37,651 nt of DNA from a virus. Below are positions 2,397 through 21,838 of the stretch, one piece after another; position 1 is the stretch's first letter; each line of letters opens with the position of its first letter. A model generated the notes under the pieces. It saw nothing but the letters and a program-made list of their open reading frames with translations, was not told the DNA's origin and searched no databases. Position numbers and translations under genes: made by a program. The DNA lies in IMG/VR virus record IMGVR_UViG_3300020109_000057, positions 1-37,651 of that record. One strand, written 5' to 3'.

Positions 2397-2933
2397 ATGC
2401 AAAAAAAATATATTCATGTTATAAACAATGAGAAGAAATCTAATCCTAGTATTTTGCCAGAAACATATAAAAATATAACAAATTTTCATTTGTTATCTGA
2501 TGATCAGATATCTGACTTGTCTTGGTCTGGTAATAATGGTGAAGGTTGGTGGCTAGTAGAAAGTGATCCACTACCATCAATTAATTTTAAACAAAAAATA
2601 ATTACCACTTATACTTTGAACGTAGTAAATAAAACATGTCAGGAATCTTATGTCGTCGAAAATTTAATTACAAGTGAACAAGAGGAATTAAATAATAGGG
2701 TTTTAGTGTCACTCAGAACAGTTCGTGACAGATATTTACGCATGACCGATTTTACCCAATTATCAGACTCGCCAATCTCTGATCAGTCAAAGCTTGATTT
2801 TAAGAACTTCAGACAACAGTTAAGAGATATGTTTAATGATAATAATATAGATAATATAAATTGGCCGTTAATACCAACATCAGCACCAAACATCAAGATA
2901 CCCGCATTTCCTAAAATCTCAGATTTTTACTAA
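2397..2933 (+). CDS. Tail-assembly-chaperone-like protein (Phage_tail_APC-type C-terminus)
   Basis: This is a 178-aa protein starting one base after the previous stop, so the two are probably co-translated. The C-terminal third carries the pattern R-x-R-x-L-x-x-T-D-[FW]-T-Q-L-x-D-[SA]-P followed by F-R-Q-x-L-R-D-M (VRDRYLRMTDFTQLSDSP, then FRQQLRDM). It matches the conserved core seen in small phage proteins annotated as tail-fibre or tail-assembly chaperones. The N-terminal part (GWWLVESDPLPS, about residues 50-65) resembles the short beta region that often precedes this core. Such proteins are usually encoded directly after the fibre they help to fold, as here. It ends with tandem TAA stops and has no Shine-Dalgarno sequence. 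Family assignment is from motif memory. Confidence 0.65.
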   Translation: MQKKYIHVINNEKKSNPSILPETYKNITNFHLLSDDQISDLSWSGNNGEGWWLVESDPLPSINFKQKIITTYTLNVVNKTCQESYVVENLITSEQEELNNRVLVSLRTVRDRYLRMTDFTQLSDSPISDQSKLDFKNFRQQLRDMFNDNNIDNINWPLIPTSAPNIKIPAFPKISDFY

Positions 2934-2982: not shown

Positions 2983-3612
2983 ATGTCTTATTCTTACGAT
3001 TATTATTATCAAGCTTGTTTATTATTGAGGAGTAAAGGATTTTATCCTAAAAATATATTGGATATTGGTGCAAGTGTCTGTCAAACGGCAGACATTATGC
3101 GCGAAATTTGGCCTGTCGCAAATATCTTGTTATTTGAAGGAAACAATGAATGCGAAAAATTATATCAGAAACTAGAATATAAATATCAAATAAAATTACT
3201 TGGCAAGCAGAATGGAATAACTAAATTTTATAAAACAAAATGGAGTCCAATTTGTTCTGGCAATTCTATTTATAAAGAAAATTCTGAAACATACAATGAA
3301 GAAAATCTTATAGTAGAAGAGTTGCCTATTTATAAATTAGATGATTGCATCAAAGATGTTTACGATCTTATAAAAATTGATACTCAAGGCAGTGAGTTAG
3401 ATATCATTGAAGGCGGCATGAATACTTTTAAAAATGCCAAAGTCGTTATTACTGAAGTTTCTTGCGATAATTATAATGAAGGCGGCTGCACTAAAGATCA
3501 AATATTAAAGAAAATGTCTGATCTAAAATTTGATTATATTATGCCTGTTGAAACAGTTGTGAACAACAAGAATGAATTCATTGCCGAAAGTTTATTGTTT
3601 ATCAAACCTTAA
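2983..3612 (+). CDS. FkbM-family SAM-dependent methyltransferase
   Basis: This 209-aa protein has the FkbM/Methyltransf_21 pattern. A SAM-binding motif I is present (NILDIGAS, residues 24-31), then an acidic residue after strand 2 (LLFEGN, Glu52). The diagnostic IKIDTQGSELDIIEGG lies at about residues 130-145, where the family has (I/V)K(I/V)DxxGxE. Family members O-methylate sugars and small molecules. Next to two glycosyltransferases and a sulfotransferase, the likely substrate is a glycan on the virion or the host surface. That target is inference. Length is typical for a compact FkbM domain. Its TAA overlaps the stop of the convergent glycosyltransferase by four bases, with no terminator between them. 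Confidence 0.85.
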   Translation: MSYSYDYYYQACLLLRSKGFYPKNILDIGASVCQTADIMREIWPVANILLFEGNNECEKLYQKLEYKYQIKLLGKQNGITKFYKTKWSPICSGNSIYKENSETYNEENLIVEELPIYKLDDCIKDVYDLIKIDTQGSELDIIEGGMNTFKNAKVVITEVSCDNYNEGGCTKDQILKKMSDLKFDYIMPVETVVNNKNEFIAESLLFIKP

Positions 3613-4571
3613 ACTAATATCTTCTTCCACCATTTTATAACCATCTTTGGGCGAAAGTTCCTTGGCGTAGAATCTTTTGTTGAATAATTTTTAAACATGT
3701 TTATATATTCTTGCATATCAGTGGTAAGATTTTTATTGTTTACTAATTCGGGCAAACTACCTAGTCCATTTATACCAAAAACAAATGAAGTAGTTTTTAA
3801 TATATCAGCCAACACAACGCTTATTCCAAAAGTCTCGGGCATCGTATTTACATAAAACATGCCGCGACATTTTGCCATCAGCTCAACTACTTCTTTGAAT
3901 TTAAGAGTGCCTAAATAATTGACTCCATAATTTTTGTCGCTTATATCTTGAAGTGGATTATCATATCCCGGCAAACATACGTTTAATATATCTGTGTTAC
4001 TGAGTATTTTTTGATCTTTGAGATATTTCCACATAGATAATGTAGAATTATATCCTTTCATTAAACTACTAGCATATATAAAATTTTTCTTATTATCTGG
4101 TATAGAATATTCGTATACCCAATCTGGTATTATGAAATAAATAACGTGTTTGTCCCAGAATTTAGGAAACAAATCGTTTTGAAATTGACTAAGCGTAACT
4201 AATGTCAATTTCTTTTCTTCAAATAGTTTGTAGAATTTCAAATTATGTACGCCATTTAAATCTGTAGCCCATACAAACGCTTTTTTATGAGCAATTTTAG
4301 GAACGTCGCTGTATCTATGAATAATCAGGTTATTGCATTTAAATTTGTATTTATTAGTATAAGTATTTGGCGCATATAATACTCCATTTACAAAAGATTC
4401 TGTATTATAATTATTTAAACATATAACTTTATATCCTTCTTTAACTAATTCTTCAAGAAGTAAAATAGCTTGAAACTCGCTGCCGCCCATGCCTGATTGA
4501 TGCATGGTATTTCCATCGTATGGAGATCCTATGCTATCAAAAAGAATAACGTCTGCATAAATATCCGTCAT
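3609..4571 (-). CDS. GT-B glycosyltransferase (GT4-like)
   Basis: This is a 320-aa protein. The N-terminal half carries a Gly-rich donor/acceptor loop, MGGSEFQAILLLEEL (about residues 28-42), typical of group 1 transferases that begin with GG(S/A)E. The C-terminal half has the nucleotide-sugar segment MPETFGISVVLAD (residues 244-256), where E246 matches the first Glu of the EX7E motif. The second Glu is absent: the expected position, 254, is Leu, although Asp256 is close. GT-B enzymes lacking the second acid are known, so activity remains possible. It would transfer a sugar to an unknown acceptor in the cytoplasm. The start ATG overlaps the stop of the upstream glycosyltransferase (ATGA), so the two are translationally coupled. 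Confidence 0.8.
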   Translation of the reverse strand: MTDIYADVILFDSIGSPYDGNTMHQSGMGGSEFQAILLLEELVKEGYKVICLNNYNTESFVNGVLYAPNTYTNKYKFKCNNLIIHRYSDVPKIAHKKAFVWATDLNGVHNLKFYKLFEEKKLTLVTLSQFQNDLFPKFWDKHVIYFIIPDWVYEYSIPDNKKNFIYASSLMKGYNSTLSMWKYLKDQKILSNTDILNVCLPGYDNPLQDISDKNYGVNYLGTLKFKEVVELMAKCRGMFYVNTMPETFGISVVLADILKTTSFVFGINGLGSLPELVNNKNLTTDMQEYINMFKNYSTKDSTPRNFRPKMVIKWWKKILV

Positions 4572-5332
4572 ACAATAACTTTGAAATCATCATCATTATC
4601 TGCTTTAGAGAAATATTTAGCAATATCAGTTGGTGATTGTGAATCATATGTTTCAGTTTTTCTGAAAGAATTGATCCACTTTCCAACATCTCCAAAAAAC
4701 GTTTTCGTGCCTGTATGTGAGCAGGTTATTTTCGTATCAAGATAAACGCTGTTGCCAAGATTACGCCACTTCTTGCACATATAAATATCTTCACTAATCA
4801 AATCATTATCTTCGCAGACAACTTCAAACACCATTCTCGCATCGCCTTTCTCTGAAGTGTATGGCTTTGAAATATCCCATAATGCATTTATTGCTTTGCG
4901 AGAAATCTTCATAAATCCGCAACCTAATCCTGCAACTTCAAGAATACCATTTTCATCTACATTTAAATTCAATTTAGAATTATCTTTATCAAGAGCTTTA
5001 ACAACATATAATTCTTCGTTATCTGTTTTCTTGCGGTAACTGCCGCCAATTATGTCTTTATCGCTATGAACTAGCTTATAAAAATCTTGAGGGTTCCAAC
5101 CAATATCACCATCAATAAAAAATAAAATATCTATATTATTATCATGCGCGGCTTTAAATAAATCATTTCGCGCACGTTGTATTAGCGAGTCGTAACAGAT
5201 AAACAATGGATAAACGTCTATATTATTTTTTTCTGCTGTAGATAAAGTATTTAAAAGCGAGTCAATATAATAAACATCAAGTTTGCCGTCGTATGATGGA
5301 GTTCCAATTAATACTTTTGTTTTTTCAGCCAT
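4568..5332 (-). CDS. GT-A glycosyltransferase (GT2-like)
   Basis: This 254-aa protein begins with a Rossmann-like strand (KVLIGTPSYDG) and has the segment SLIQRARNDLF followed by LFFIDGDIGW. D74-G-D76 is the metal-binding DXD motif of GT-A enzymes. It closely resembles short phage and bacterial GT2-type proteins containing R-x-x-x-a-x-x-f and flDsDi-w. A conserved C-terminal acidic stretch (EDNDLISEDIYMCKKW) fits the catalytic-base region. It is coupled to the downstream GT-B gene by a 4-base overlap. The upstream region is unusual: a strong hairpin-plus-T element ends at the start codon, and the only convincing Shine-Dalgarno-like GAGG lies inside its 3' arm. Expression may therefore depend on read-through from the 93-aa gene or on opening of the hairpin. 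Confidence 0.8.
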   Translation of the reverse strand: MAEKTKVLIGTPSYDGKLDVYYIDSLLNTLSTAEKNNIDVYPLFICYDSLIQRARNDLFKAAHDNNIDILFFIDGDIGWNPQDFYKLVHSDKDIIGGSYRKKTDNEELYVVKALDKDNSKLNLNVDENGILEVAGLGCGFMKISRKAINALWDISKPYTSEKGDARMVFEVVCEDNDLISEDIYMCKKWRNLGNSVYLDTKITCSHTGTKTFFGDVGKWINSFRKTETYDSQSPTDIAKYFSKADNDDDFKVIV

Positions 5333-5335
5333 AAA

Positions 5336-5362
5336 ACCTCAAGAACATTACGTCCTTGAGGT
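5336..5362 (-). terminator. Intrinsic terminator of the 93-aa gene, abutting the next start codon
   Basis: Read on the minus strand, an 11-bp stem (ACCTCAAGGAC with GTTCTTGAGGT, one G-U pair, 5-base loop GTAAT) is followed by TTTT and then the ATG at 5332. On the plus strand the inner part mismatches (8-bp stem), so the signal is directional. It ends the monocistronic 93-aa transcript. Its 3' arm also contains the GAGG that could serve as the ribosome site of the glycosyltransferase. Confidence 0.75.
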
Positions 5363-5396
5363 ATTTTACATTGTTTAAATATTATTTCTAGACTTA

Positions 5397-5678
5397 TTAT
5401 CGTGTCAAAGCGGGAGGATATTCTGCCATAACTAGAGCTACAACAGCGGCAGATAGTTGAGCATCTGTCCATTGACCAGCTTGATCATATGTGTCTCCAG
5501 ACCATACTGTGTACCAGTTGTGGGCATATGGAGTTGTTGATATCTTTACCAAACTCTTCACAGTCTTTCCAACTGGATCGTCTGTCGTTTGAAGGATTTC
5601 GATTTGACTGCTGTTAGCAGCTTGTTGAATTTCTACAGCACTTGGTAGATTGATAATAGGAAATACTGGACTGCTCAT
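5397..5678 (-). CDS. 93-aa protein of unknown function in its own transcript
   Basis: This small protein has no signal peptide, membrane segment or Cys. The N-terminal half is polar, with SAVEIQQAANSSQIEIL suggesting a short helix. The middle is aromatic-rich (HNWYTVWSGDTYD), and the Ala-rich helix at the C-terminus (DAQLSAAVVALVMAEYP) looks like a packing surface. I do not recognise it. It has a GTGTAAA box 14 bases upstream and a strong terminator downstream, so it appears to be a stand-alone, probably well-expressed unit. Its base composition is less AT-rich than its neighbours. A minor virion or host-directed protein is possible. No function is claimed. Confidence 0.7.
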   Translation of the reverse strand: MSSPVFPIINLPSAVEIQQAANSSQIEILQTTDDPVGKTVKSLVKISTTPYAHNWYTVWSGDTYDQAGQWTDAQLSAAVVALVMAEYPPALTR

Positions 5679-5719: not shown

Positions 5720-6544
5720 TTAATAATCATAATTAAATGCTTTATAAAACCAAGGAAATTTGTTGTAAATATTATCGCAGTTTTGTTTTCCGAGAATATC
5801 GATATAATCATTTGGAACTGGTTTTATTACTTTTTGAATAGCGTGATCGCCAAAAGGAATATGCATGCGATCATTTTCAAAGGTCTTTTGTTCTACATTA
5901 TTAAAATCGTGTTGATAAAATGGCAACTCTAAAAACTCATATACTCGTTGCATTTCACGTTGCGGATTAGAAGCAAAGTTTTCGAACTTAATAAACAAAC
6001 ATTTTTTGCTCAACTTACGCATCAAAGTATCATACAATACATCCATACTTACAGCAAGTGGTGGAGCTTGTAATAAGAAATAATCTATTCTTTTGTCTAC
6101 AGTAGTGTTCCGAAGTTCATTCCAATTTTGTAGACCGGCATCTATGTTTTGATGTTGTCTCCACTTCTTTTCCATACTAGCTACAACCGCTCTTAAATCA
6201 CGCACCATGACAATTACTTTGGGATCTGGATAATACCAATTTAAAAAGTCATAAGTTACACTCCAACCTCTGCTTTTATCAATTACATACTTTTTATCAG
6301 TAATAGCATTAAAGTATGCAAGCATACCTTCTTTGCAAAGAGCTTTGAATGCTGGCTCTACTACATTGATGTCTTGAGCTTTGAACTCAATGTTGTTTGA
6401 ATAGATATTTCTTGCATTAAGAAATATTTCAATCAATCCACTCGTTGGTGTAGCATAAAAATCAGGATTTTGCGCCAATACATTTTGTAATAATGTTGAA
6501 CCAGCCCGAGGCAACGAACATTGAAAAAATACCTTTTCAACCAT
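5720..6544 (-). CDS. PAPS-dependent sulfotransferase-like protein
   Basis: This is a 274-aa protein when begun at the ATG at 6544. The frame is open to 6589, but the shorter start puts the 5'-phosphosulfate loop PRAGSTLL at residues 12-19, the usual place in Sulfotransfer_1/3 proteins, and avoids overlap with the divergent kinase. A 3'-phosphate-binding segment follows at residues 109-123: KVIVMVRDLRAVVAS, with Arg115 and Ser123 in the positions of the family's R...S. Trp residues and a C-terminal helix are also typical. The enzyme would move sulfate from PAPS to a hydroxyl group, most likely on a sugar or a tyrosyl side chain. The adjacent glycosyltransferases favour a glycan. The adjacent APS-kinase-like gene could supply PAPS. 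Confidence 0.85.
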   Translation of the reverse strand: MVEKVFFQCSLPRAGSTLLQNVLAQNPDFYATPTSGLIEIFLNARNIYSNNIEFKAQDINVVEPAFKALCKEGMLAYFNAITDKKYVIDKSRGWSVTYDFLNWYYPDPKVIVMVRDLRAVVASMEKKWRQHQNIDAGLQNWNELRNTTVDKRIDYFLLQAPPLAVSMDVLYDTLMRKLSKKCLFIKFENFASNPQREMQRVYEFLELPFYQHDFNNVEQKTFENDRMHIPFGDHAIQKVIKPVPNDYIDILGKQNCDNIYNKFPWFYKAFNYDY

Positions 6545-6554
6545 ACCATATATT

Positions 6555-7010
6555 ATGCCAGATAATTCGTTTTTAAAGATACTTATCATGGGATTGCCAG
6601 GATCTGGAAAAACAACATTAGCGGCAGATTTATATCATTTATTAAATGTAAATTACCAATGTTATTGGCTGAATGCTGATGATATAAGACAAAGATTTAA
6701 TGATTGGGATTTTTCAAATTTAGGTAGAAAACGTCAGGCTAAACGCATGAAAGATCTTGCTAATTTATATGGTCAATACAATGATATTATTATATGTGAT
6801 TTTATCTGTCCGTTAGAAAAAACTAGACAAGATTTTAATGCTGATTATACTGTTTTTGTGAACACTATTGATATGTCAAAATATGATGATACAAACAAAA
6901 TTTTTGAAAAACCTGTAAATTTTAATTTTGAGGTGAAGATAAAGAATAGCAGATATTATTCTAAAATCATATATAACGAATTAGTTCATAAACTTAATAA
7001 AAAAGTGTAA
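6555..7010 (+). CDS. Adenylylsulfate (APS) kinase-like P-loop protein
   Basis: This is a 151-aa kinase. Walker A is GLPGSGKTT (residues 13-21). NADDIR (40-45) replaces the GDNIR-type motif of CysC. WDFSNLGRKRQAKRM (51-65) matches the family's GFS-x-x-R-x-x-N-x-x-R helix, and FICPLEKTR (83-91) matches F-I-S-P-x-x-x-x-R. After FVNT it is shorter than E. coli CysC (about 200 aa), lacking most of the substrate-loop region, so it is a compact member. CysC phosphorylates APS to PAPS, the sulfate donor used by sulfotransferases such as the divergent neighbour. The two start codons face each other with only 10 bases between them, suggesting paired acquisition. Another small-molecule or nucleotide kinase activity is possible. 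Confidence 0.75.
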   Translation: MPDNSFLKILIMGLPGSGKTTLAADLYHLLNVNYQCYWLNADDIRQRFNDWDFSNLGRKRQAKRMKDLANLYGQYNDIIICDFICPLEKTRQDFNADYTVFVNTIDMSKYDDTNKIFEKPVNFNFEVKIKNSRYYSKIIYNELVHKLNKKV

Positions 7011-7011
7011 A
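7005..7011 (+). promoter_or_regulatory. GTGTAAA box upstream of the 170-aa gene
   Basis: GTGTAAA overlaps the stop of the APS-kinase-like gene (its last codons are GTG TAA). It is followed by GTATATAT and the ATG at 7020, a gap of 8 bases. There is no Shine-Dalgarno sequence. Its spacing is close to that of the boxes at 12705, 35725 and 10890. Confidence 0.5.
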
Positions 7012-7019
7012 GTATATAT

Positions 7020-7532
7020 ATGGTCGCTTATAGTGTGCATGATTTAGCTGATGAAATTTTCGCAAATGAATTTGAGTATGATAGTGGTTATGCTCAATTT
7101 TATTATATTTCAGGATGGTTGGCAAACAATGTTGGTATGTTAAATACAAAAATTTATACTCAATATTGTGTCGAAAGTGGTAAGTTTTTGCCAACTGGAA
7201 CTTTTCAACAAGAAGAAAGAGCTATATACAAACAAATGTATTTATACGAGTTTTATACTAAAAAGACTCGTCAAGTATTACGAGGAGTTGATTCTGCTGT
7301 AGACTTTGTTACTTTACGCGAAGGTGATACATCTATTACTCGCACAAATAAAAATGAACTTGCAAAAACTTATCGAGGTTTAGCTAATGATGCGCGAGAT
7401 GAAATGGAGAAATTGGTAAGCAGTTATAATATTTATCGCGCTGCTCCTGTGCAAGTGGCTGGCGAAGATGGTTCGCCAATATTTACTGGATCAGGTTATT
7501 TTTATTATCCATATGGATATGGAAATCCATAA
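7020..7532 (+). CDS. Probable head-tail connector or neck-region protein
   Basis: This 170-aa protein is helical in the first two thirds. Aromatic-rich stretches (YAQFYYISGWLANN) lead into a helix with MYLYEFYTKKTRQVLRG, then LREGDTSITRTNKNELAKTYRGLANDARDEMEKLVSSYN. The C-terminus is Gly/Tyr-rich (YFYYPYGYGNP). I associate the helical LREGD...K-x-Y-R-G-L-A-x-D-A pattern with small structural proteins next to connector and tail tube genes in related uncultured phages, but cannot name a family. It is preceded by a GTGTAAA box and followed 3 bases later by a strong terminator, so it is either monocistronic or the end of the kinase transcript. It converges with the tail tube operon. Confidence 0.5.
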   Translation: MVAYSVHDLADEIFANEFEYDSGYAQFYYISGWLANNVGMLNTKIYTQYCVESGKFLPTGTFQQEERAIYKQMYLYEFYTKKTRQVLRGVDSAVDFVTLREGDTSITRTNKNELAKTYRGLANDARDEMEKLVSSYNIYRAAPVQVAGEDGSPIFTGSGYFYYPYGYGNP

Positions 7533-7535
7533 ATA

Positions 7536-7567
7536 AAAAAACCCCAGTCTTTCGACTGGGGTTTTTT
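7536..7567. terminator. Bidirectional intrinsic terminator between convergent units
   Basis: CCCCAGTC (7542-7549), loop TTTC, GACTGGGG (7554-7561), flanked by A6 on the left and T6 on the right. The 8-bp GC-rich stem with symmetric A/T tracts works for both the plus gene ending at 7532 and the minus tail tube gene ending at 7579. Confidence 0.95.
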
Positions 7568-7578
7568 ATTTGTAATTA

Positions 7579-8913
7579 TTAACCTAGTTTACCAGTTCCA
7601 AGCTTATAGAAGCCAGAAGTGATAGAATCTAAATAGTTTTGATAACTACCAGACATAAACAATCCAGCAGTAGTATCATTTGCACCACCAATTTGAACTG
7701 TATAAGTTAGATCTACAGTTTGATTATCTCCAAGATTTTCAGAATATGTTTCTGATTGTAGAATAGCTTCTTTAATTAGATAGTTAATTTTTTGAGTGCC
7801 ATTGCTATCTTTCAATGTGATTGATAGATCGTTCTTTTGAGAAACAAGAGCGTCAAATAGATTCTTATCTTGTAGCTCAGAAACAATTGCACTAACTGTT
7901 ACATCCATATTAATAGGAACATCAACAACTCTTGCGAATCCGAATGTATTGCCAAGACGTTGTAGAATTGTTCTGCTCAACGGTAAAGTGAAATTAAATG
8001 ATTGAATATGAGCGGTAGAAAGATTTGTCAGACCGCGACTAGTTCCAAGAGAAAGAACAATATCACCAGGACGCAATGCGCTAATAGAACTTACTCCAGT
8101 TGTAAATCCAGTGAAATTAACACCAGCAGCTGTAGTATATGGCGCTCCAGTAAATGCTCTACTATGATCTAGTTTATAAGCTTTTGCTACGTCAGTTAGT
8201 TTTGTTGCAGGTTGGGCAAATAAATCAATTGCTGGACTATTTCCGGTTATTGTAACAATTGTAGCACCTACTGGACTAGAAGGTATGCTGGCAGCAACTG
8301 TAATTGGAGTTTCACTAGCATCAGATTTGATATTGAAAGCTTCGACTGTTACACTTGCAGTTGGAATAGCTCCTACACTAGCTTCAAAACTATATTCACT
8401 TATAAATCCGTTTCCGATACCAACTATTGTTGAACTTGGTGTTAGAGTTCCGCCAACTACGTCTTCGCCTTCATCTACAGTAAGAATATAATAGTTATTA
8501 CCTTGAAGATCTGCTAATAAACCAGAAATAGCTTGTGCGCCATTAGCAAGATTAGTATCAGTTACGCCAGTTATATTGAATCCCATCAATCTTTCATTGT
8601 ATCCATCAGTTACATAATAACTGAAATCAAGTCCAACTGTTGGAGCTTCCATGACAATTGAGTCAATACGAGCAAGTTTACCAAATTCATTGATATCTTG
8701 TCTATTGATTGTAAAATTGAAATTACAACTTTGAATACGATCAAGTTTTTTCAGAAGTGAAATACCTGAACCTAATGATCCAGTATCTGTTGGTAAAAAT
8801 GGCGTTGCTGTTGGGCCAGATCCTTCTGCTGTAACTCCACTTACTTGTACTCCAGTAGAGCTAGGAGCGATAAATAAAGCTTGACTTTGATATATTACAC
8901 GATTTCTTGCCAT
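7579..8913 (-). CDS. Major tail tube protein with duplicated tube domain
   Basis: This is a 444-aa beta-rich protein. Two related segments occur: IQSCNFNFTINRQDINEFGK onward (residues 60-112) and IQSFNFTLPLSRTILQRLGN onward (303-353), each followed by a P-[TI] strand (MEAPTVGLDFSYY and VDVPINMDVTVSA). In the first half SFEASVGAIPTASVTVEAF (175-193) is the kind of strand that lines tube rings. T5 pb6 (464 aa) has two fused tube domains and forms trimeric rings, and this protein has similar size and duplication. Homology to pb6 itself is not claimed. As the probable last gene of the minus-strand neck operon with a strong terminator, it should be abundant. A weaker box (CTGTAAAA) lies about 30 bases upstream. 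A head-decoration role is less likely. Confidence 0.75.
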   Translation of the reverse strand: MARNRVIYQSQALFIAPSSTGVQVSGVTAEGSGPTATPFLPTDTGSLGSGISLLKKLDRIQSCNFNFTINRQDINEFGKLARIDSIVMEAPTVGLDFSYYVTDGYNERLMGFNITGVTDTNLANGAQAISGLLADLQGNNYYILTVDEGEDVVGGTLTPSSTIVGIGNGFISEYSFEASVGAIPTASVTVEAFNIKSDASETPITVAASIPSSPVGATIVTITGNSPAIDLFAQPATKLTDVAKAYKLDHSRAFTGAPYTTAAGVNFTGFTTGVSSISALRPGDIVLSLGTSRGLTNLSTAHIQSFNFTLPLSRTILQRLGNTFGFARVVDVPINMDVTVSAIVSELQDKNLFDALVSQKNDLSITLKDSNGTQKINYLIKEAILQSETYSENLGDNQTVDLTYTVQIGGANDTTAGLFMSGSYQNYLDSITSGFYKLGTGKLG

Positions 8914-8973
8914 ATGATTTTATTGTTATAAATGTTATAATTTTTTACAGTGATTATTTTGTTTTGGGAAATT

Positions 8974-12718: not shown

Positions 12719-15700
12719 ATGTCAGTACAAATCAATGTCGCGGCGAATCAAGCAGCATTAGTAGCTTCTATTCAAGCTGGTGTACAAGCATATAATCAAA
12801 GATTTGCGCAGAATAATCCAATAAATCTTCAAATTAATGCCAGAGCTTTTTCTCAACCATTAGGAAGAATAACTGGAGATGTTAAAGATTTTGAAGCGGC
12901 ATTGGCGGCTTCTAATGCTCGCGTTATTGCATTCGGTGCATCTACTGCTGTTCTTGGTGGTGTTATTCGTAGTTTCAAAGAATTAGCTAGTGTAACCATT
13001 GATGTTGAAAAAAATCTTGCTGATATTAATCGTGTATTCGGATTAAGTACAAGTCAGTTACAAAAATTCAGCACAGAATTATTCAACGTAAGTAAACAAA
13101 CGGCTTCATCATTTGATGATGCTAGTAAAGCCGCTCTTGAGTTTTCTCGTCAAGGTTTAAAAGCTGAAGAAACCTTACAAAGAACAAAAGACGCTCTTAC
13201 ATTAACAAGATTAGCTGGAATAGGAACAGCAAATGCTGTTGATGCTTTAACTTCTACTGTAAACGGTTTTGCTGCAACTGGAATTACTACAACTCAGATT
13301 TTAAATAAACTTGTTGCTGTTGAACAAGACTTTGCTGTTGGTGCTGGTGATCTTGCTGAAGCGTTGTCTCGTACAGGTCAAGCAGCACAAGAAGCTGGTG
13401 TTAGCTTAGATCAATTGAACGCATTAGTAACAGCTGCTCAACAAAGTACAGCTAGAGGCGGTGCAGTAATTGGTAACGCATTAAAAACAATTTTTACTCG
13501 TTTACAACGTACAGATACTCTTGATCAGTTAGAAGCATTCAATATCTCTGTTAGAGATGTACAGGGAAATATTTTACCAGCAGTTACTATTCTTGAAAAC
13601 TTTGCTGGCGCATATAAAAATTTAGCTGACGCACAAAGAGCGCAATTGTCTGAACAAGTTGCCGGTGTTTATCAAGTCAACATTCTTAAAGCAATTGTCA
13701 ATGATTTAAATCAATCTCAAGGAGTATATGCTGGCGCATTACAACGTGGCGCAAGCGCAACAAATGAAGCAGAAATTGCAACAGCTAAATTAAATAAAAC
13801 ACTTGACGCATTATTAAGTCAAACAGCAACATCTGCTCAACAATTAGCCAATAATATTGGTAAAGTTACTTTTGAACCTTTGGCAAGATACGGCACAGAA
13901 CAATTGAAGTCTCTTGTCGAGAGCATGAATGAAATTCTTGAAGGCGAAGGCATCGGTTCAACATTTGCAAATGGTTTATTGAAAGGTATCAGAAATGTGA
14001 TAGCTGGTCCCGGTGCTATTGCTGCTTTCTTTACGCTTTTTAAATTAATACAAAACTCTTTTTCATTTCTTAGTCAAGCTTTACCTCAGATTGCTGGTAT
14101 TACGACAGAAACACAAAATAGAAAAAATATTGAATCGGCTATTTTGCAAATTATGGCGCAACAAGGAACTGTTGCGCAAGCTCTTGATGGATTAACTGGA
14201 AATCAAGTAGCACAAGCGAACTTGTTGCTGCAAACAGCAAGAGCGCAAACTGCTGAATATCAACGACAAGTAACATTAGCAAAACAATTAGCTCCTCAAT
14301 TGTCTGGTCAAGGAGTTAAAGTAGCTGGTTCTCGCGGATTACAAGTTACTCGCGCTGGCGGTTACGTTCCCACTGCGACAAAATTAGCAGAAGTAGTTGG
14401 CGCAAAAGCTGGTGGCTATAGTCCCGGCAGAGTAGTTCCTTCGCCGGTTGGTGGAGTAATGAATACCGCTGAAGATGTAAAATATGTTCCCGGTTTCGCT
14501 CAACCTTTTATTAATCCTCCTGCTAATTCCAAGGCAGGTCGCGCACACAGACAAAAATCAATAAATAGAACAGGTGTTGATCCATATATGTTTAGAGGAT
14601 TTATTCCTAATTTTGGATTGACATCTACTGGAACAGAAACATCTAAAGAATGGTCTGATCGAGTTAAAATCAGAAATAATCCACTTGTTACTAGTAAAAC
14701 TAATGTTGGTCCAAAATTTTTTGATTTTTTTGTAGCAGACATAAATAAAAAACAACTTAACATAAGTATTGATGCGATTAGAAAAGAAGCGCGAGATGTA
14801 GTCAAAGAAATATATTTAAAAAAACAAAATAGAACAGGCGAATTATCTGGACTTGCTTATCAACCAGAAAAATTGCAAGCTTTTGTAAATAAATATGAAG
14901 ATCAAGTTGATCCTACGGGTTTAGCAAGAACAGAGACTGGTTTAAAAAATATAAACAAAACAAGTGGATATTCTTATGCAATAAATCAAGTTCAAGGATT
15001 ATTAGGAGAAGCAGAAGCTTATAAAGAATTAAAAGATCATGGATATAAACCAACAAGCGGTAATCAATATTTTGATTTTAAGACTGATGATGGAAGATTC
15101 GCTGAAGTAAGAACCAGAAAAGCAGTTTCAATTAAAGATATTTTGGATAAAGCTATTTTACAACATTTATCAACAATAACAGGAACGTATAATAATACTA
15201 AAAATGATCGTATTTTTACAGGTAATTATGATTTAATTACTCCAACTGGAACTGCTTTTAATGCTTCCGGTTTTATTCCTAATTTTGCTGTTCCAATGAC
15301 TACTGCAAGCATCCCTTGGTTCAAAAAATATTCTAGTAAATATAAAAATGTTGCTGGTGATACAGATGTTTTCAAGATGGGGGATTTTCCTACTTATGGA
15401 AGAGGTTTAAATCACGAATATGCAAAAAAGGGAAATTCCGCTATGCTATCTTACTTGCATGAAGATTTTGTAAGATCTGCATTGAATATAGCTTTAGGTT
15501 CAAAAAAAGTAATAAGACCAGCAGAAGTTGGATTCAAAAATAAACCCGTAAGCGATATATCAAATGAGAATGATTTTGATTTATTATATAAACTTGCTGA
15601 TGGTTCATATAGTATGATTGAATTGAAGCAAGATTTTAAAAATATTTCTGGATCTGTTATTGGATTCATGAATAAAAAACTTGAAAATCTCAAAAAAGAA

Positions 15701-18700
15701 AATCCAGAATTAGCTAAAAAAGTTAGCTCAATGATTGCTATATCAAATAGACCAAAATTTATTGATCCTACTGGTAAAAATCCTGGTGCAAATTTCAGTG
15801 AATTTGAAATGGCTGTTGCATCAATTGTTAAAGATAAATATTCGAATGTTGATTCAACAATAAGCGCAAAACTCACAAAAGTTACTGATGGTTTATTAAG
15901 AAGATACGAAGCTAAGAAAAATACCACATATGGTGGTTTTATACCTAATTTTGCTTCACCTATAATGAAGGGTTATGCTTTTCAAGATGGTAGAATATAT
16001 AATGCTTTATACCATTCAGATGCTTGGGATGAAATTGAAGGTTCTACTAAAGGCGCAATAAAATATGCTATTCATAATAATAAATTATTATTACAAACTA
16101 GACAACCAATATCGGATACTTTAAAACGAGCATTTATATCAAAAGGTGTGCCTGAATCAGCTTTTTCTCCAGTTGAAGATGTAGCAGGTACTATGGCGGG
16201 TACAAATATTGCTGAAACAGAAAAGATGATAAATAATTTAGACCTCGTTGATATTGGAGGTGGTTATAAAGCTCAATTAAGAAAGGGAATTTATACAGCA
16301 ATTTATAATCTAAAAAATCAATCTTATGCTCCATTTGGCGGCGTAAGCCCAAAAGAATTACAAATGTATGGAGGTATTGAAAACTTTCTTAAGCGTGAAT
16401 TAAAGTTGGGAAGAGCTAAATCAGATTTTTCTCTTAATTCTTCAAAAGGTTTTATTCCTAATTTTGGTGTTGATCGAAACTATGTATTAGAAACTTTAGG
16501 AAGAATAAAGGAAGGCACAAGCGGTTTTTCTAAACTAGAGATAGAAGAATTCCTTAAAAAATTTGGCGCAGAATCATCAGTTCCTGATAAGATTTTTTCT
16601 AAAAACTCAATAATATCTACTGGAGAAATAATGGGAAAAAAACTTCCCAAATCAGTCATTGATTATATCAAAGGTAAATCTGTAAAAGAATTGAATGATT
16701 GGTTACAGAATCCAATTAAAAGAGCAATGTTTGATGGAATATTTGGTTTTAATTTCAGCAATTTTATAGGCAAAAATTCTAGATTTACAGATAGTAAAGG
16801 TTTTATTCCTAATTTTAACTATAATGATGGTGCATTGGATAAAATGACCACAGAATTAGGAAAAAGAGGAGCAATATCATCAGATCTAATACAATTCGTA
16901 ATCGATTTAAAAAATGAAAGATATGCAACGGGAGAAGATAAATTTCATCGCGAAATTGTAGCCAAACACTTTGGAGAAAACTTAACTCATGAAGAGTTAT
17001 TACACCCTAAATATGCAAATACTTATTTGAAAGGCAGTTATGATAAAAATAGTGGAAAAATTATATTTTATAAATCATTTCTGCAATCAATATTGCCGGA
17101 TAATCTTTTTGAAAACAAGCATCCATATATAAGAACAGTAAAAAATGAATTAAAATCAAGATTTGCTAATCGACAAAAAAACCGCCCAGTTATACCAAAA
17201 ACATTTTCTGCTTATAGAACATTTCACGAACAACATCCTGGACCTTTCCCTGTAAATGATTTTAATAAAGGTTTTATTCCTAATTTTGCATATAAACAAG
17301 CAGTAATGAGTTTAGAAGAAAACATGAGTGGCAATAAAGCCATATTTGATACTAAACCTTTTCCTCATATTAGAAACAGCAGTCAGCCAACATTTAGTTC
17401 CGCGATTGCCGATCATGGTGGATTAGCAAATGCGATGAGCGATTCAATGAGAGGACAGAAAGCTGCGGGGTTGATGAGTAAAGGGTTTGTGCCTAATTTC
17501 GGAAAAAAAGGAAAAAGTAGAAAAAGGAGAGGATCCTCTGCAGCTAGTTCTTCTGTGCCTCCAACAGGACCAGCATCAAATCCATCTCCTCCAACACCAG
17601 CATTTAGTAATGACGATATAGACCGAGCTATTTCTGATTTTATAAATGCAGTTCAAGCAGCAGAAGAAAATTTAAGCTTTTTTGAATCTGCGTTTGGAAG
17701 AAATAAATTGATAAAATCAGAAATGTTAAAATTAGAAAACGCTTTAAAAGCAGGTGGTCTTTCTGGCGCTGAATTGAGTAAGGCGATGACTGCTGCCAGT
17801 AATCAGATAAAGCAACAACAAGGTAAGTTTGCAAAAGGTTTATCATCTGCTAGCACAGCTATATCTATTGCTGGACCAATGATTGCTGGATTTGTAGAAC
17901 AAGCCGTTTTTGGTAATAAAAAACGTACAGAAATGACATCTGGTGAACGTCAAGGTCAAGCCCTTATAAGCACTGGATTGAGTGCTGTAACAACTGGCGC
18001 GGGTATTGGTGCAGCTTTTGGTCCTCAAGGAGCATTGATAGGTGGTGCTATTGGAGGTTTGGTTGGTTTAGTTAGCGCAATAGATGCAGCTAGTTTATCG
18101 TTATCTGAATTAGCGGAAATTGATCAAGAATTTTTAAAAAAACAACAAGCTAATTCTCAAGCTGCTTCTGGTTATGTTGATAGTCAGAAAAAATTAAATG
18201 ATTTAATAGCTAGTGGAGCTTCAAGTAAAGATATTGAAGATGCAACTAGAAATTTAGCACTTAGTTTTAATGAAATTAAAGATGTTAATCTAGCTCAAAT
18301 TTTTGCTAGCACTGGCGGTAATGTAAATAAACTACAAGATGAACTGAAGAAATATAATGATCAATTGAGTAGAACAGCAGCCGGTAAATCTGCTTTGAGT
18401 AATTTACAACAAGGCGGTGGATTTTTTGCTACAACTTTTGCGGGTGGAAAAACAACTGCTGAATTAGGTGTTAAAGAACCTTCAGAGGTGGCTGCTGAGT
18501 TATTCAAATCATCTTCGCTATTTAAAGATCCGCAAGTGATTGAACTTATGAAAGCTGGCACTAATGAAGATTTAATTGCAAGTGTAAAAAGATTCAAAAG
18601 TAGCAGAGTAAAACTCAATGTTCCAGGTCTCAGAGAGAATGCCGCTCAAATAGCTATTGCTCAACAAAATTTTGCTAAAAAATTTACTGATGAATTATTT

Positions 18701-21700
18701 CCAGATCTAAAAGAGAATGATTTTGCAAGATATCAGCAAGAAGTTCAAAGAGCAGTAGATTTACTATTCGGTAAAAGTGGAGAAGCAATCGGAAGAGGTC
18801 TTGAAAAAATGGGTAAATTAGAGGCTTCTAACAATGCTATTCAAAAAGTTAGAAACGCCGCTTTACAAGGATTTGCTGAAATTTTTGGAAAAATAGAAAA
18901 TTCTATCAAAACTTTATCATTGCAAGCGGCAATAGCTTTAGAAAAAGATTCACAAATTAACAGGGTAAATTCGGCAATAAATGAATTTACTACTAATTTT
19001 TCTGAATCGATTGAAAGTTTTGTAATGAATTCTTTACCAGAAGGTCCAAAAAAATTAGGCTTTACTCAATTTGCCGCACAAAGAAAATATGATGATGCTA
19101 TTGCAAAACAGCAAATTTCTGCTGAAAATTTCAGATTGAGTCAACAAAAAGAACGAAATGATTTTCAAAAAACAAGAGAAGAAAATATAACAAAATTATT
19201 TAAAGAAGTAAGCTTGCAATCCGAACAGTCTGCTAAATTTTATCAATCAGATATATATGATAAAGTAAAATCGGGAGATTTGTCAGGTTTATCAAGTGAC
19301 GAAGTAAGTAGAGCTTTGACGGGAAAATTAATTGAACGAACTAAAACATCAGGATTAACAGCTGAAAGTCAAGCAGTAAGTTTAAGAAGAGGTTTAAAAG
19401 AAAAAAATATTGATCTTTCAAACTTTGATTTTTCAGATAAAGATAAAGTTGGTAGCTTAATCGAAACTGTAGGCGCAGTTCAAAATGAAATAGCTGCTAC
19501 AGGTGGAGCAGGGAGCGATCAAACTTATTTAAAAAGAATAGTCGCTAAATTTCAAAATTCTTTAAGTGATCTTTACAACACTCAAGAATTTTTTACAAAT
19601 AAAGCTAAGAAACAAGAATATGATGCAGCTATTGAGTTGGCTAGATTAGAAGGAGATCAGTTCAATCAGAGAATGATTAATGCTGAAAAATTATTTCAAG
19701 TAAATCAAATTTTAGAAAAAGCTCAATTAGAAGCAACAAAAACTTTATCAGTAGAAAGAGCTAAAGTAGATAATGCAAATTTCATGCGCATGGAAAGCAT
19801 GAAAAACATGTCCGCAAGTATAGCTAATAATTTAGATGTAAGTAAGGCCGAAGGAACAAGAGACATAAATCGCCTTAAAAGAACTTTACAAGATCCTGCT
19901 AAAGTTGCTGGTCTCGGTGTATCAGAAAGATCCGAAAGACAGTTTAAAATACAAGAACAAATATTGAAAAAAGAAAGAGCTATGGAAGATGCAAACATAA
20001 ATGCTGAAATTCAACAAAGAATGTTGGAATTAGCCGCTGAACGTGAAAATACAACAGCTTTATATAATTTATCAGAAGTCATTGAAAGATTTGCGGCAAA
20101 AACTTTGTTAGATGATTTAGGTGGAGAAGAGGTTTTTAAAGAAATGCAAAATAATCCTTATATAGGAAAAAGCAAGGACGAATTAGACGTTATGATTACG
20201 AGCGGATCTTATATGCAGCAAGAAGTAAATCCTGGTGTTAACGTTTTAGAGCAAATACGAAAAGCTCAATCTTATTCTCCAGAACAATTAACTAAATTCG
20301 AAGCGTATAAAAGAACTCAAGCATCTATTGCTGCTTATAGATCAGGCAACACTTCAACAGCTACAGTAGACGCTTTTGCTGATAGAATGTCTAAGGCAAA
20401 TTTTAATAAGATGGACAGAGATAAACAAATGGCATTCTTAACAGAAGAGCGACAGAAAGCTGATGAAGCAGGAGCAATAGCATTATCAAATACTATTAGT
20501 CGTTTTCAAGAACAGATTAAATTAAGAAAAGAAGCTCTAGATATTAGCAGAGCCGATGTAAATGAACAAGTAGAATTCGATAAAAAAATTATTAGAACCA
20601 ATAATTCTTTTGCAGGAAGATTTAAAACTAGTTTTCGTAACCTTAAATACGAAGGAGAAGAAATTTTATTAAAACTAGGTGGAGATCTGCCAAGAATGTT
20701 TGCTGATGGTCTTGTAAATGGCATAAAAGCAGCAATAAGAGAAAGCGATAATTTAGGTGAAGCTTTAATGGGTATAGCTGGTAACTTTTTAGATGCTATA
20801 AGTACCGCTATGATGCAATCGGCGGTTTATTCAATGTTGGGATCGATGGGATTCAATATGGCTGGTGCCGCTGGATCAGTGCCAGTTAAAACTCAAAAAG
20901 GTGGAGTGATTCGCGCTCAATCTGGTATGTATATTTCTGGAACAGGTTCTGGAGATAAATATCCAGCATTACTTGAGAACGGCGAATATGTATTGAATAG
21001 AAAAGCAGTAATGGCTATGGGTGGCCCAAGCGAATTAGATAAATTGAATTTTTCAATGGCTCCTCGTTTTGCTTCTGGAGGTTCTTTTGCAACAGAGTTG
21101 ACTGATTTAAAATCTATGGAAGAAGGTATGACAACTTTTGGTTTAGAAAATAGTAAGTTATACAATGAATTAAGAGATGAACAAAGAGCTAAACAAGCAG
21201 AAAAAAGACGCAAAGCCGCTGAAAGAAGAAAAATGATTGCTGGTATTGTGGGGTCAATAGTTGGAATGGCGGCTTCATTTGGGCTAATGAAAGCTGCTGG
21301 TAAATTTAATACTGATACTGGTATGGGCGGAAGTGCCGCGCCAAAAGGCCCTGGAGTTGATAAACCTGATTATTTAGGATATGGAGTTGGATCTTCTAGA
21401 AATACATCTCTAGCTATAGGAACAGGAGGTCAAACAGGAGGATTATTTACTGGTAAAAGTTTTCAAAAAAGCAGTAACTCATCATCGTATGGTTCTCGTT
21501 TATCAGACATAATTCCAGCTTATGCAGAAGGTGGATTATATAGCTCACCAATTATTAAAAAATATGGTGTTGGTATGCAAAATGGAGGAATGTACGGTGG
21601 TTCTTCTAACAATTCTAATACAGTAAATAATAACAATGCAACTAATTCATTCAATTTTAATACAACAGTAAATAGAGACGGTACTATACAAATGGGAGCA

Positions 21701-21838
21701 GATTCAACAAGTTATAAACAACAAGATGTAGAATTATCTAATAATTTGAATTCTAAAGTATATGAAACAGTATTAGATGTGATAAAACAACAACAAAGAT
21801 TTGGCGGCGTATTAGCTGGAACTCGTAGACCTGTTTAA
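12719..21838 (+). CDS. Tape measure protein carrying an internal module array
   Basis: This 3039-aa protein sets tail length and leaves with the DNA during infection. Residues about 95-400 are a typical tape-measure core (PhageMin_Tail/TP901 type: KNLADINRVFGLSTSQLQKF, then RGGAVIGNALKTIFTRLQRT). Glycine-rich hydrophobic segments that could cross membranes lie at about 428-450, 1705-1730, 1760-1789, 2680-2713 and 2839-2859. The C-terminus has the common GG-x-x-x-x-x-G...PALLENGEYVLNRKA signature (about 2730-2770). Between residues 627 and 1594 seven GF(I/V)PNF motifs separate six modules, two of them PD-(D/E)XK nuclease-like. A basic KKGKSRKRRG patch and a Pro/Ser linker follow the last motif, then long coiled coils. 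The stop and the next ATG share one base (TAATG). The core role is secure; the delivered-effector role is inferred. Confidence 0.95.
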   Translation: MSVQINVAANQAALVASIQAGVQAYNQRFAQNNPINLQINARAFSQPLGRITGDVKDFEAALAASNARVIAFGASTAVLGGVIRSFKELASVTIDVEKNLADINRVFGLSTSQLQKFSTELFNVSKQTASSFDDASKAALEFSRQGLKAEETLQRTKDALTLTRLAGIGTANAVDALTSTVNGFAATGITTTQILNKLVAVEQDFAVGAGDLAEALSRTGQAAQEAGVSLDQLNALVTAAQQSTARGGAVIGNALKTIFTRLQRTDTLDQLEAFNISVRDVQGNILPAVTILENFAGAYKNLADAQRAQLSEQVAGVYQVNILKAIVNDLNQSQGVYAGALQRGASATNEAEIATAKLNKTLDALLSQTATSAQQLANNIGKVTFEPLARYGTEQLKSLVESMNEILEGEGIGSTFANGLLKGIRNVIAGPGAIAAFFTLFKLIQNSFSFLSQALPQIAGITTETQNRKNIESAILQIMAQQGTVAQALDGLTGNQVAQANLLLQTARAQTAEYQRQVTLAKQLAPQLSGQGVKVAGSRGLQVTRAGGYVPTATKLAEVVGAKAGGYSPGRVVPSPVGGVMNTAEDVKYVPGFAQPFINPPANSKAGRAHRQKSINRTGVDPYMFRGFIPNFGLTSTGTETSKEWSDRVKIRNNPLVTSKTNVGPKFFDFFVADINKKQLNISIDAIRKEARDVVKEIYLKKQNRTGELSGLAYQPEKLQAFVNKYEDQVDPTGLARTETGLKNINKTSGYSYAINQVQGLLGEAEAYKELKDHGYKPTSGNQYFDFKTDDGRFAEVRTRKAVSIKDILDKAILQHLSTITGTYNNTKNDRIFTGNYDLITPTGTAFNASGFIPNFAVPMTTASIPWFKKYSSKYKNVAGDTDVFKMGDFPTYGRGLNHEYAKKGNSAMLSYLHEDFVRSALNIALGSKKVIRPAEVGFKNKPVSDISNENDFDLLYKLADGSYSMIELKQDFKNISGSVIGFMNKKLENLKKENPELAKKVSSMIAISNRPKFIDPTGKNPGANFSEFEMAVASIVKDKYSNVDSTISAKLTKVTDGLLRRYEAKKNTTYGGFIPNFASPIMKGYAFQDGRIYNALYHSDAWDEIEGSTKGAIKYAIHNNKLLLQTRQPISDTLKRAFISKGVPESAFSPVEDVAGTMAGTNIAETEKMINNLDLVDIGGGYKAQLRKGIYTAIYNLKNQSYAPFGGVSPKELQMYGGIENFLKRELKLGRAKSDFSLNSSKGFIPNFGVDRNYVLETLGRIKEGTSGFSKLEIEEFLKKFGAESSVPDKIFSKNSIISTGEIMGKKLPKSVIDYIKGKSVKELNDWLQNPIKRAMFDGIFGFNFSNFIGKNSRFTDSKGFIPNFNYNDGALDKMTTELGKRGAISSDLIQFVIDLKNERYATGEDKFHREIVAKHFGENLTHEELLHPKYANTYLKGSYDKNSGKIIFYKSFLQSILPDNLFENKHPYIRTVKNELKSRFANRQKNRPVIPKTFSAYRTFHEQHPGPFPVNDFNKGFIPNFAYKQAVMSLEENMSGNKAIFDTKPFPHIRNSSQPTFSSAIADHGGLANAMSDSMRGQKAAGLMSKGFVPNFGKKGKSRKRRGSSAASSSVPPTGPASNPSPPTPAFSNDDIDRAISDFINAVQAAEENLSFFESAFGRNKLIKSEMLKLENALKAGGLSGAELSKAMTAASNQIKQQQGKFAKGLSSASTAISIAGPMIAGFVEQAVFGNKKRTEMTSGERQGQALISTGLSAVTTGAGIGAAFGPQGALIGGAIGGLVGLVSAIDAASLSLSELAEIDQEFLKKQQANSQAASGYVDSQKKLNDLIASGASSKDIEDATRNLALSFNEIKDVNLAQIFASTGGNVNKLQDELKKYNDQLSRTAAGKSALSNLQQGGGFFATTFAGGKTTAELGVKEPSEVAAELFKSSSLFKDPQVIELMKAGTNEDLIASVKRFKSSRVKLNVPGLRENAAQIAIAQQNFAKKFTDELFPDLKENDFARYQQEVQRAVDLLFGKSGEAIGRGLEKMGKLEASNNAIQKVRNAALQGFAEIFGKIENSIKTLSLQAAIALEKDSQINRVNSAINEFTTNFSESIESFVMNSLPEGPKKLGFTQFAAQRKYDDAIAKQQISAENFRLSQQKERNDFQKTREENITKLFKEVSLQSEQSAKFYQSDIYDKVKSGDLSGLSSDEVSRALTGKLIERTKTSGLTAESQAVSLRRGLKEKNIDLSNFDFSDKDKVGSLIETVGAVQNEIAATGGAGSDQTYLKRIVAKFQNSLSDLYNTQEFFTNKAKKQEYDAAIELARLEGDQFNQRMINAEKLFQVNQILEKAQLEATKTLSVERAKVDNANFMRMESMKNMSASIANNLDVSKAEGTRDINRLKRTLQDPAKVAGLGVSERSERQFKIQEQILKKERAMEDANINAEIQQRMLELAAERENTTALYNLSEVIERFAAKTLLDDLGGEEVFKEMQNNPYIGKSKDELDVMITSGSYMQQEVNPGVNVLEQIRKAQSYSPEQLTKFEAYKRTQASIAAYRSGNTSTATVDAFADRMSKANFNKMDRDKQMAFLTEERQKADEAGAIALSNTISRFQEQIKLRKEALDISRADVNEQVEFDKKIIRTNNSFAGRFKTSFRNLKYEGEEILLKLGGDLPRMFADGLVNGIKAAIRESDNLGEALMGIAGNFLDAISTAMMQSAVYSMLGSMGFNMAGAAGSVPVKTQKGGVIRAQSGMYISGTGSGDKYPALLENGEYVLNRKAVMAMGGPSELDKLNFSMAPRFASGGSFATELTDLKSMEEGMTTFGLENSKLYNELRDEQRAKQAEKRRKAAERRKMIAGIVGSIVGMAASFGLMKAAGKFNTDTGMGGSAAPKGPGVDKPDYLGYGVGSSRNTSLAIGTGGQTGGLFTGKSFQKSSNSSSYGSRLSDIIPAYAEGGLYSSPIIKKYGVGMQNGGMYGGSSNNSNTVNNNNATNSFNFNTTVNRDGTIQMGADSTSYKQQDVELSNNLNSKVYETVLDVIKQQQRFGGVLAGTRRPV
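14615..15268 (+). other. Tape measure module 1: PD-(D/E)XK nuclease-like domain
   Basis: Residues 633-850. The second half carries GLLGEAEAYKELKDHGY (acidic residues at 764/766), then YFDFKTDDGRFAEVRTRK. D786 and E796 followed by V-R798 fit the D...(D/E)-x-K core of the restriction-endonuclease fold, with Arg in place of the usual Lys. A helical lead (about 680-750) precedes it. The fold call is by pattern only. The K-to-R change may alter activity. Confidence 0.5.
15287..15934 (+). other. Tape measure module 2: PD-(D/E)XK nuclease-like domain
   Basis: Residues 857-1072. LHEDFVRSALNIAL (E915) is the first helix acid. NDFDLLYKLADGSYSMIELK gives D954 and E968-L-K970, the complete D-x13-E-x-K arrangement. 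KQDFKN follows. This is the better preserved of the two nuclease-like modules and is not an obvious copy of module 1. A DNA- or RNA-cleaving role after ejection is inferred. Confidence 0.55.
15953..17482 (+). other. Tape measure modules 3-6, no recognised domain
   Basis: Module 3 (residues 1079-1243) begins GYAFQDGRIYNALYHSDAWD and looks like a mixed alpha/beta domain. Module 4 (1250-1360) is short and helical. Module 5 (1367-1517) has KFHREIVAKHF and THEELLHPKYANTYL, with scattered His and Glu but no metal motif I can defend. Module 6 (1524-1588) is short and polar, with PFPHIRNSSQPTFSSAIADH. No function is assigned to any of them. Confidence 0.7.

Follow-up and report, generated by a model that had tools for sequence, protein, structure and literature searches.

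A sulfotransferase and kinase gene pair among phage tail genes

The window, that is, the whole stretch of DNA analysed here, is a viral record of 37,651 bases that is likely a fragment. It carries a gene encoding a PAPS-type sulfotransferase and a gene encoding an APS-kinase-like protein (hereafter the transferase and the kinase), which are arranged head to head with 10 bp separating their start codons and belong to a block of six genes. The block and its borders comprise the following features.

2397-2933, plus strand: phage tail assembly chaperone (Phage_tail_APC, PF16778, 5.8e-10; PHROG tail fibre assembly), left border
2983-3612, plus strand: FkbM-family methyltransferase, 209 aa (Methyltransf_21, 1.5e-10; NCBIfam fkbM_fam, 8.1e-12; over the cut-offs)
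3609-4571, minus strand: glycosyltransferase-like protein, 320 aa, GT-B-like by sequence motifs only; moves with the cassette
4568-5332, minus strand: glycosyltransferase-like protein, 254 aa (phrog_1574, unknown function, 6.7e-26)
5397-5678, minus strand: small protein, 93 aa, of a widespread phage family (no Pfam or PHROG match); moves with the cassette
5720-6544, minus strand: PAPS-type sulfotransferase, 274 aa (Sulfotransfer_3, PF13469, 4.4e-19)
6545-6554: gap of 10 bp between the divergent start codons (direct reading)
6555-7010, plus strand: APS-kinase-like protein, 151 aa, with ~18 lid residues deleted (PF01583, 6.7e-14)
7020-7532, plus strand: flanking gene, right border, present in full and empty sites; anchor for 41 clade loci

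The original prediction had placed both reading frames at these coordinates, with starts 10 bases apart, and direct reading agrees. The transferase start at 6544 is borne out by its relatives, which begin with M(V/P)(E/K)K, and their starts give no support to a longer reading frame beginning at 6589. Fourteen other contigs show the identical divergent arrangement, again with 10 bp between the starts, and therefore the adjacency of the two genes is not due to chance. No Shine-Dalgarno sequence precedes either gene of the pair, and it is also absent before 23 of the 26 genes of the window; together with a GC content of 31%, this would fit a Bacteroidota-like host.

The pair had also been described as lying inside a virion-structure region, beside two glycosyltransferases and an FkbM methyltransferase. 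Indeed, tail genes flank it on both sides and the FkbM assignment stands. The glycosyltransferases are less firmly identified: the 254-aa protein has weak matches to the glycosyltransferase families phrog_12406 (7e-4) and phrog_34859 (3e-3) and stays under the cut-off for Pfam GT2/Anp1, and the 320-aa protein matches no family in Pfam, PHROG or NCBIfam. The 93-aa gene was considered as a cassette-specific acceptor and rejected, since the family occurs in many phages and no sulfotransferase was present at 35 of 40 loci of distant homologues, fetched with up to 5 kb on each side.

Two further features of the window were noticed. Six starts (5678 on the minus strand, 7020, 10882 on the minus strand, 12719, 31469 and 35739) are preceded by the heptamer GTGTAAA at a distance of 7-14 bases; the window holds 12 copies against 6.7 expected, a number reached by 4 of 100 shuffles, and GTGTAA precedes the 7020 gene in full and empty sites alike. 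In addition, a tape-measure-like protein (12719-21838, 3039 aa) displays seven GF(I/V)PNF motifs, at residues 627, 851, 1073, 1244, 1361, 1518 and 1589.

The sulfotransferase

The transferase matches both Sulfotransfer_3 (70 bits against a cut-off of 27) and Sulfotransfer_1 (1.3e-13) above the curated cut-offs, and its best PHROG is phrog_27463, of unknown function (1.7e-40). The two PAPS-binding signatures attributed to it at first reading are present: the 5' PAPS loop reads PRAGST and the 3' phosphate loop reads VRDLRAVVASM. Furthermore, residues R13, G15, T17, R115 and S123 do not vary among 38 relatives from phages and bacteria.

The AF2 model of the protein is confident (pLDDT 93.7). Its nearest folds (VIA) are those of tyrosylprotein sulfotransferases (TPSTs; Z 19.3-20.0, rmsd 3.6-4.1 over 243-247 residues), followed by curacin and olefin-synthase sulfotransferases (Z 15.5-15.7); TPST1 and TPST2 are also the sole solved relatives detected by sequence. 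In the sequence alignment, Lys90 corresponds to the catalytic lysine of TPST, whereas the catalytic glutamate (E99 of TPST2) is not conserved, its GEET stretch being aligned with PTSG. The transferase looks like a working PAPS sulfotransferase, but it cannot be filed as a TPST.

One related contig (L019) carries two copies of the transferase gene, at 3940-5540 and 6001-8960, each followed by a glycosyltransferase-like gene of the type found at 4568 in the window.

The APS-kinase-like protein and its trimmed lid

The kinase scores 52.6 bits with Pfam APS_kinase (curated cut-off 21.1), the match covering residues 9-96 only, and does not reach the cut-off of the apsK equivalog TIGR00455 (47.4 against 138.7 bits). 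The structure prediction that had been proposed as a check gives a confident AF2 model (pLDDT 94.3) whose fold matches APS kinases before all others. Indeed, APS kinases, alone or as domains of larger proteins, make up all matches listed by Foldseek and the top 30 found by VIA (Z 16.5-19.2), the next being a gluconate kinase (15.7). A profile of 34 kinase relatives run against the PDB likewise ranks APS kinases first (3.5e-18) and nicotinamide riboside kinase far lower (1.4e-3); the possibility that the protein is the nicotinamide riboside kinase of a NadR-like pair was rejected on these profile and fold rankings.

The original prediction that the kinase carries the CysC motifs holds for the N-terminal part, which displays the P-loop (Walker A), D..R, FS..GR and P....R. 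Residues D42, R45, F53 and R58 align with D63, R66, F75 and R80 of the Penicillium chrysogenum enzyme (1d6j), and the position of N83 is occupied by Gln; four of the five APS-site residues are therefore kept. The prediction fails for the C-terminal part: the segment RDxKGLYkkA...FTGI..PYE (RDxKGLY...FTGI.xPYE in motif form), which forms a lid over bound APS, is not intact. Compared with the full-length APS kinase of a Bacteroidetes MAG, the kinase reads KYDDTNKIFE...KP at this position and is shorter by ~18 residues. This deletion and the signature [YF].DTN..F..P are common to the whole family of window-type kinases.

Sequence and model together predict that the kinase is an enzyme of the APS-kinase fold with a trimmed lid. 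Owing to the lid deletion, APS is no more than its likely substrate.

Joint presence and absence of the two genes

In order to compare related phages, 41 loci of the same clade were collected with the gene at 7020-7532 as an anchor. Both genes are found in 15 of them and neither in 24, of which 19 have at least 1.3 kb of room upstream; the remaining two carry the kinase at a contig edge that leaves no room for the transferase. Among these 41 loci, none with room carries the transferase or the kinase alone. Co-occurrence in relatives, another check that had been proposed, thus shows the pair to be a unit.

Furthermore, the block made of the FkbM methyltransferase, the two glycosyltransferase-like proteins, the small protein, the transferase and the kinase is absent as a unit in the relatives with an empty site. 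In L373, L393, L399, L374, L365 and L372, the chaperone gene is followed after ~40 bp by the 7020 gene. In L376, L377 and L378, the 3' end of the kinase gene (IANEIVRKMNKKV-stop) persists at the empty site, just upstream of the 7020 homologue, and looks like the scar of a loss of the cassette. The site can also hold other genes, as read from the sequence: other glycosyltransferases in L379 and L381, and other tail fibres in L387, L388, L391 and L392.

Beyond the clade, APS_kinase was found in 17 of 23 transferase-bearing records versus 3 of 27 control records anchored on uvsX (Fisher p 7.6e-6, a value that overstates the difference, the contigs being related and the controls shorter on average), and Sulfotransfer_3 in none of the 27 controls. 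No kinase adjoins the transferase in six cassettes (L013, L015, L017, L019, L020 and L021), although L019 and L020 have one in another part of their records.

The shared 10 bp layout, the joint presence and absence, the enrichment in APS_kinase and the other pairings described below all indicate that the transferase and kinase genes are coupled.

Other partners of the transferase and of the kinase

Pairing of the two gene families is not restricted to the divergent arrangement. In L100, L101 and L105, a window-type kinase gene overlaps by 8 bp the gene of a transferase 26% identical to that of the window. Moreover, ~26 loci harbour operons in which a transferase gene is followed by a second type of kinase gene (KIN2) and a nucleotidyltransferase gene; in most, the transferase and kinase genes are separated by 8 bp or less (228-963 bp in a minority) and those of the kinase and the nucleotidyltransferase share 4 bp. 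Such packed operons, whose nucleotidyltransferase is a 130-150-aa HxGH protein, were seen in L147-L205 (for example L150 and L166) and in L040. A 292-aa glycosyltransferase-like gene without Pfam family is found in 45 of 60 of the packed-operon loci and a DUF2061 gene in 29 of 60.

Eighty loci anchored on the kinase give a broader picture of its family. A nucleotidyltransferase adjoins the kinase or is fused to it in 47 of them, a transferase lies within 8 kb in 12, and none of the 80 has both within 8 kb. The fusion of a window-type kinase with an HxGH nucleotidyltransferase (phrog_10255) accounts for 30 of the 80 loci (L060, L065, L073, L074, L079, L081 and others), none of which has a sulfotransferase within 8 kb. 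The closest solved structures to the nucleotidyltransferase profile are NMN adenylyltransferases, and the fusion could be a miniature bifunctional enzyme that makes a donor. Because the isolate-phage relatives occur as fusions with a nucleotidyltransferase, in phages devoid of the transferase family, the kinase family also serves uses beyond the window-type transferase. Conversely, the transferase presumably can live on host PAPS, since three cyanophage genomes carry it without a kinase.

DUF2061 is found fused to kinases of both kinds. Its partner in a Bacteroidetes MAG (L219:9350-10246) is a full-length APS kinase, encoded near a transferase 42% identical to that of the window, and its partners in two phage contigs (L085:6276-6890 and L086:2207-2827) are lid-trimmed, window-type kinases. 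In L166, it is encoded by a separate gene. From these sequences, DUF2061 appears to tie the full-length and window-type kinases together.

A putative sulfation cassette and its acceptor

The pair probably forms the sulfating half of a decoration cassette of six genes, which is gained and lost as a whole among the tail genes of a lambda-like tailed phage; the kinase would make PAPS, the transferase would use it, and the likeliest acceptor would be a tail component. According to this model, the kinase would phosphorylate host-made APS to PAPS, using ATP, and the transferase would pass the sulfate from PAPS to the acceptor. The two glycosyltransferase-like proteins and the FkbM methyltransferase would most likely build and methylate a glycan, with the sulfate placed on it or near it, and the likeliest acceptor would be a component of the tail or of the tail fibres. 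The original prediction that the kinase makes the donor of the transferase withstands both conditions that had been set to refute it, since the predicted fold of the kinase matches APS kinases first and the two genes co-occur as a unit; the lid deletion leaves APS as a likely substrate.

The cassette directly follows the gene of the tail-fibre assembly chaperone, and this location favours the tail over the capsid as target. Because of it, a tail component would be the likeliest acceptor, and the presence of FkbM and glycosyltransferase-like genes beside the pair makes a glycan the more likely carrier of the decoration.

The same enzymes might instead act on the lipopolysaccharide, capsule or exopolysaccharide of the host surface, sulfating it for instance to keep competing phages out, a possibility that deserves attention even if it lies on the unlikely side. 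Modification of host surface glycans is known from temperate as well as lytic phages, and the bacterial relatives of the transferase adjoin glycosyltransferase-like and FkbM genes in Bacteroidetes MAGs. However, the phage cassette lies within a block of tail genes, where it is exchanged together with tail-fibre genes; this favours a virion target without being decisive.

It seems doubtful that the transferase sulfates a tyrosine of a virion or host protein, as a TPST does, rather than a sugar. The TPST fold is the nearest by a clear margin (Z 19.3-20.0 versus 15.7) and TPST1/2 are the only solved structures that sequence searches recover, but the replacement of GEET by PTSG speaks against this activity and the glycosyltransferase-like and methyltransferase neighbours suggest a glycan.

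The donor and its origin

A more elaborate scheme, in which phages would possess a self-contained sulfation system, is conceivable and rather unlikely. The lid-trimmed APS kinase, often in operon or fused with a ~130-residue HxGH nucleotidyltransferase replacing ATP sulfurylase, would feed a TPST-fold sulfotransferase that decorates tail proteins or glycans of the virion; the version in the window, without the nucleotidyltransferase, would need host APS. In G021 and G022, the nucleotidyltransferase gene has ATP-sulfurylase matches under the threshold, and in G087 and G095 two more lie directly downstream of the kinase gene; the closest solved relatives of the nucleotidyltransferase, however, are NMN adenylyltransferases.

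The CDP-phosphoramidate kinase of Campylobacter capsule synthesis is a homologue of CysC. In the same way, the kinase might act on another nucleotide, and the group that the transferase takes from a 3'-phosphorylated nucleotide might not be sulfate, a scheme that appears quite improbable. It would account for the deletion of the lid that covers APS and for the relatives paired or fused with an NMN-adenylyltransferase-like nucleotidyltransferase, and a 3'-phospho-CDP-phosphoramidate donor is reported (PMC6429109). However, both profile and fold place APS kinases well before other kinases, most of the APS-site residues are kept, window-type kinases share DUF2061 fusions with a full-length APS kinase, and the transferase retains its PAPS loops.

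Finally, it is very improbable that the kinase is an auxiliary metabolic gene of sulfur assimilation providing PAPS for cysteine synthesis, with an incidental sulfotransferase neighbour: phage cysC genes have been interpreted as assimilatory (PMC10914622), but the kinase is gained and lost jointly with the transferase, their tightly packed pairing is repeated in other phages, and PAPS_reduct (PF01507; CysH, CysD) matches none of the 43 records carrying the kinase or the transferase, which are fragments. ATP sulfurylase (PF01747), sought elsewhere in the same 43 fragmentary records, gave no match over the cut-off either. The absence of PAPS reductase from these records argues for sulfation and against cysteine synthesis, and sulfation is favoured over assimilation because both enzymes are missing.

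Significance

The coupling gives the phage sulfotransferase and cysC a joint role in sulfation that can be tested, and suggests that some of the so-called sulfur-metabolism genes of phages really serve sulfate decoration. The position of the cassette by the tail fibres ties sulfation to host recognition, and its role can be tested by comparing close relatives that have the cassette with others that do not. Should virions turn out to be sulfated, this would be an addition to the known chemistry of virion decoration.

Comparison with known systems

Sulfotransferases have been reported from phages, their function being described as unclear (PMC10580990). Those of the cyanophages S-SKS1, S-SCSM1 and S-SRM01 and of marine single-cell virus contigs belong to the same family as the transferase (25-31% identity) and to tailed phages; unlike the window, the three cyanophage genomes yielded no APS-kinase-like gene. 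Auxiliary cysC genes of freshwater phages (PMC10914622) are APS-kinase family genes like the kinase, a likeness that does not establish that the families are the same; whereas they are read there as assimilatory, the kinase of the window is coupled to a sulfotransferase and has no PAPS reductase beside it. In the open-access literature, no publication joining a phage sulfotransferase with cysC or FkbM was found.

The nearest isolate-phage relative of the kinase (~41% identity) is the N-terminal half of the phrog_10255 'kinase' of Stenotrophomonas phages Bhz60, Suzuki and DLP_6, Xanthomonas phage AhaSv and Clavibacter phage 33. It differs by its fusion to an HxGH nucleotidyltransferase domain and by the absence of Sulfotransfer_3 from the two genomes checked (Bhz60 and DLP_6). 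In bacteria, the Bacteroidetes locus L219 resembles the cassette in having a transferase near an APS kinase, but this kinase is full-length with its lid and is encoded on the opposite strand at a distance of 0.5 kb, with one gene intervening.

Among solved structures, TPST1/2 (5wrj, 3ap1) have the fold nearest to the transferase, and their PAPS loops and catalytic Lys align with it, but they are only 17-18% identical and possess the conserved Glu that it does not have. The kinase shares its fold, P-loop and other N-terminal motifs with the APS kinases (CysC, PF01583) of P. chrysogenum (1m7g), Arabidopsis (3uie) and human PAPSS1 (2ofw), and differs from them by its 151-aa length, the loss of ~18 lid residues in the FTGI..PYE region, the Gln at N83 and the [YF].DTN..F..P signature. 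Sulfotransferases and cysC were thus known separately in phages, and what is new here is a coupled cassette with a lid-trimmed kinase.
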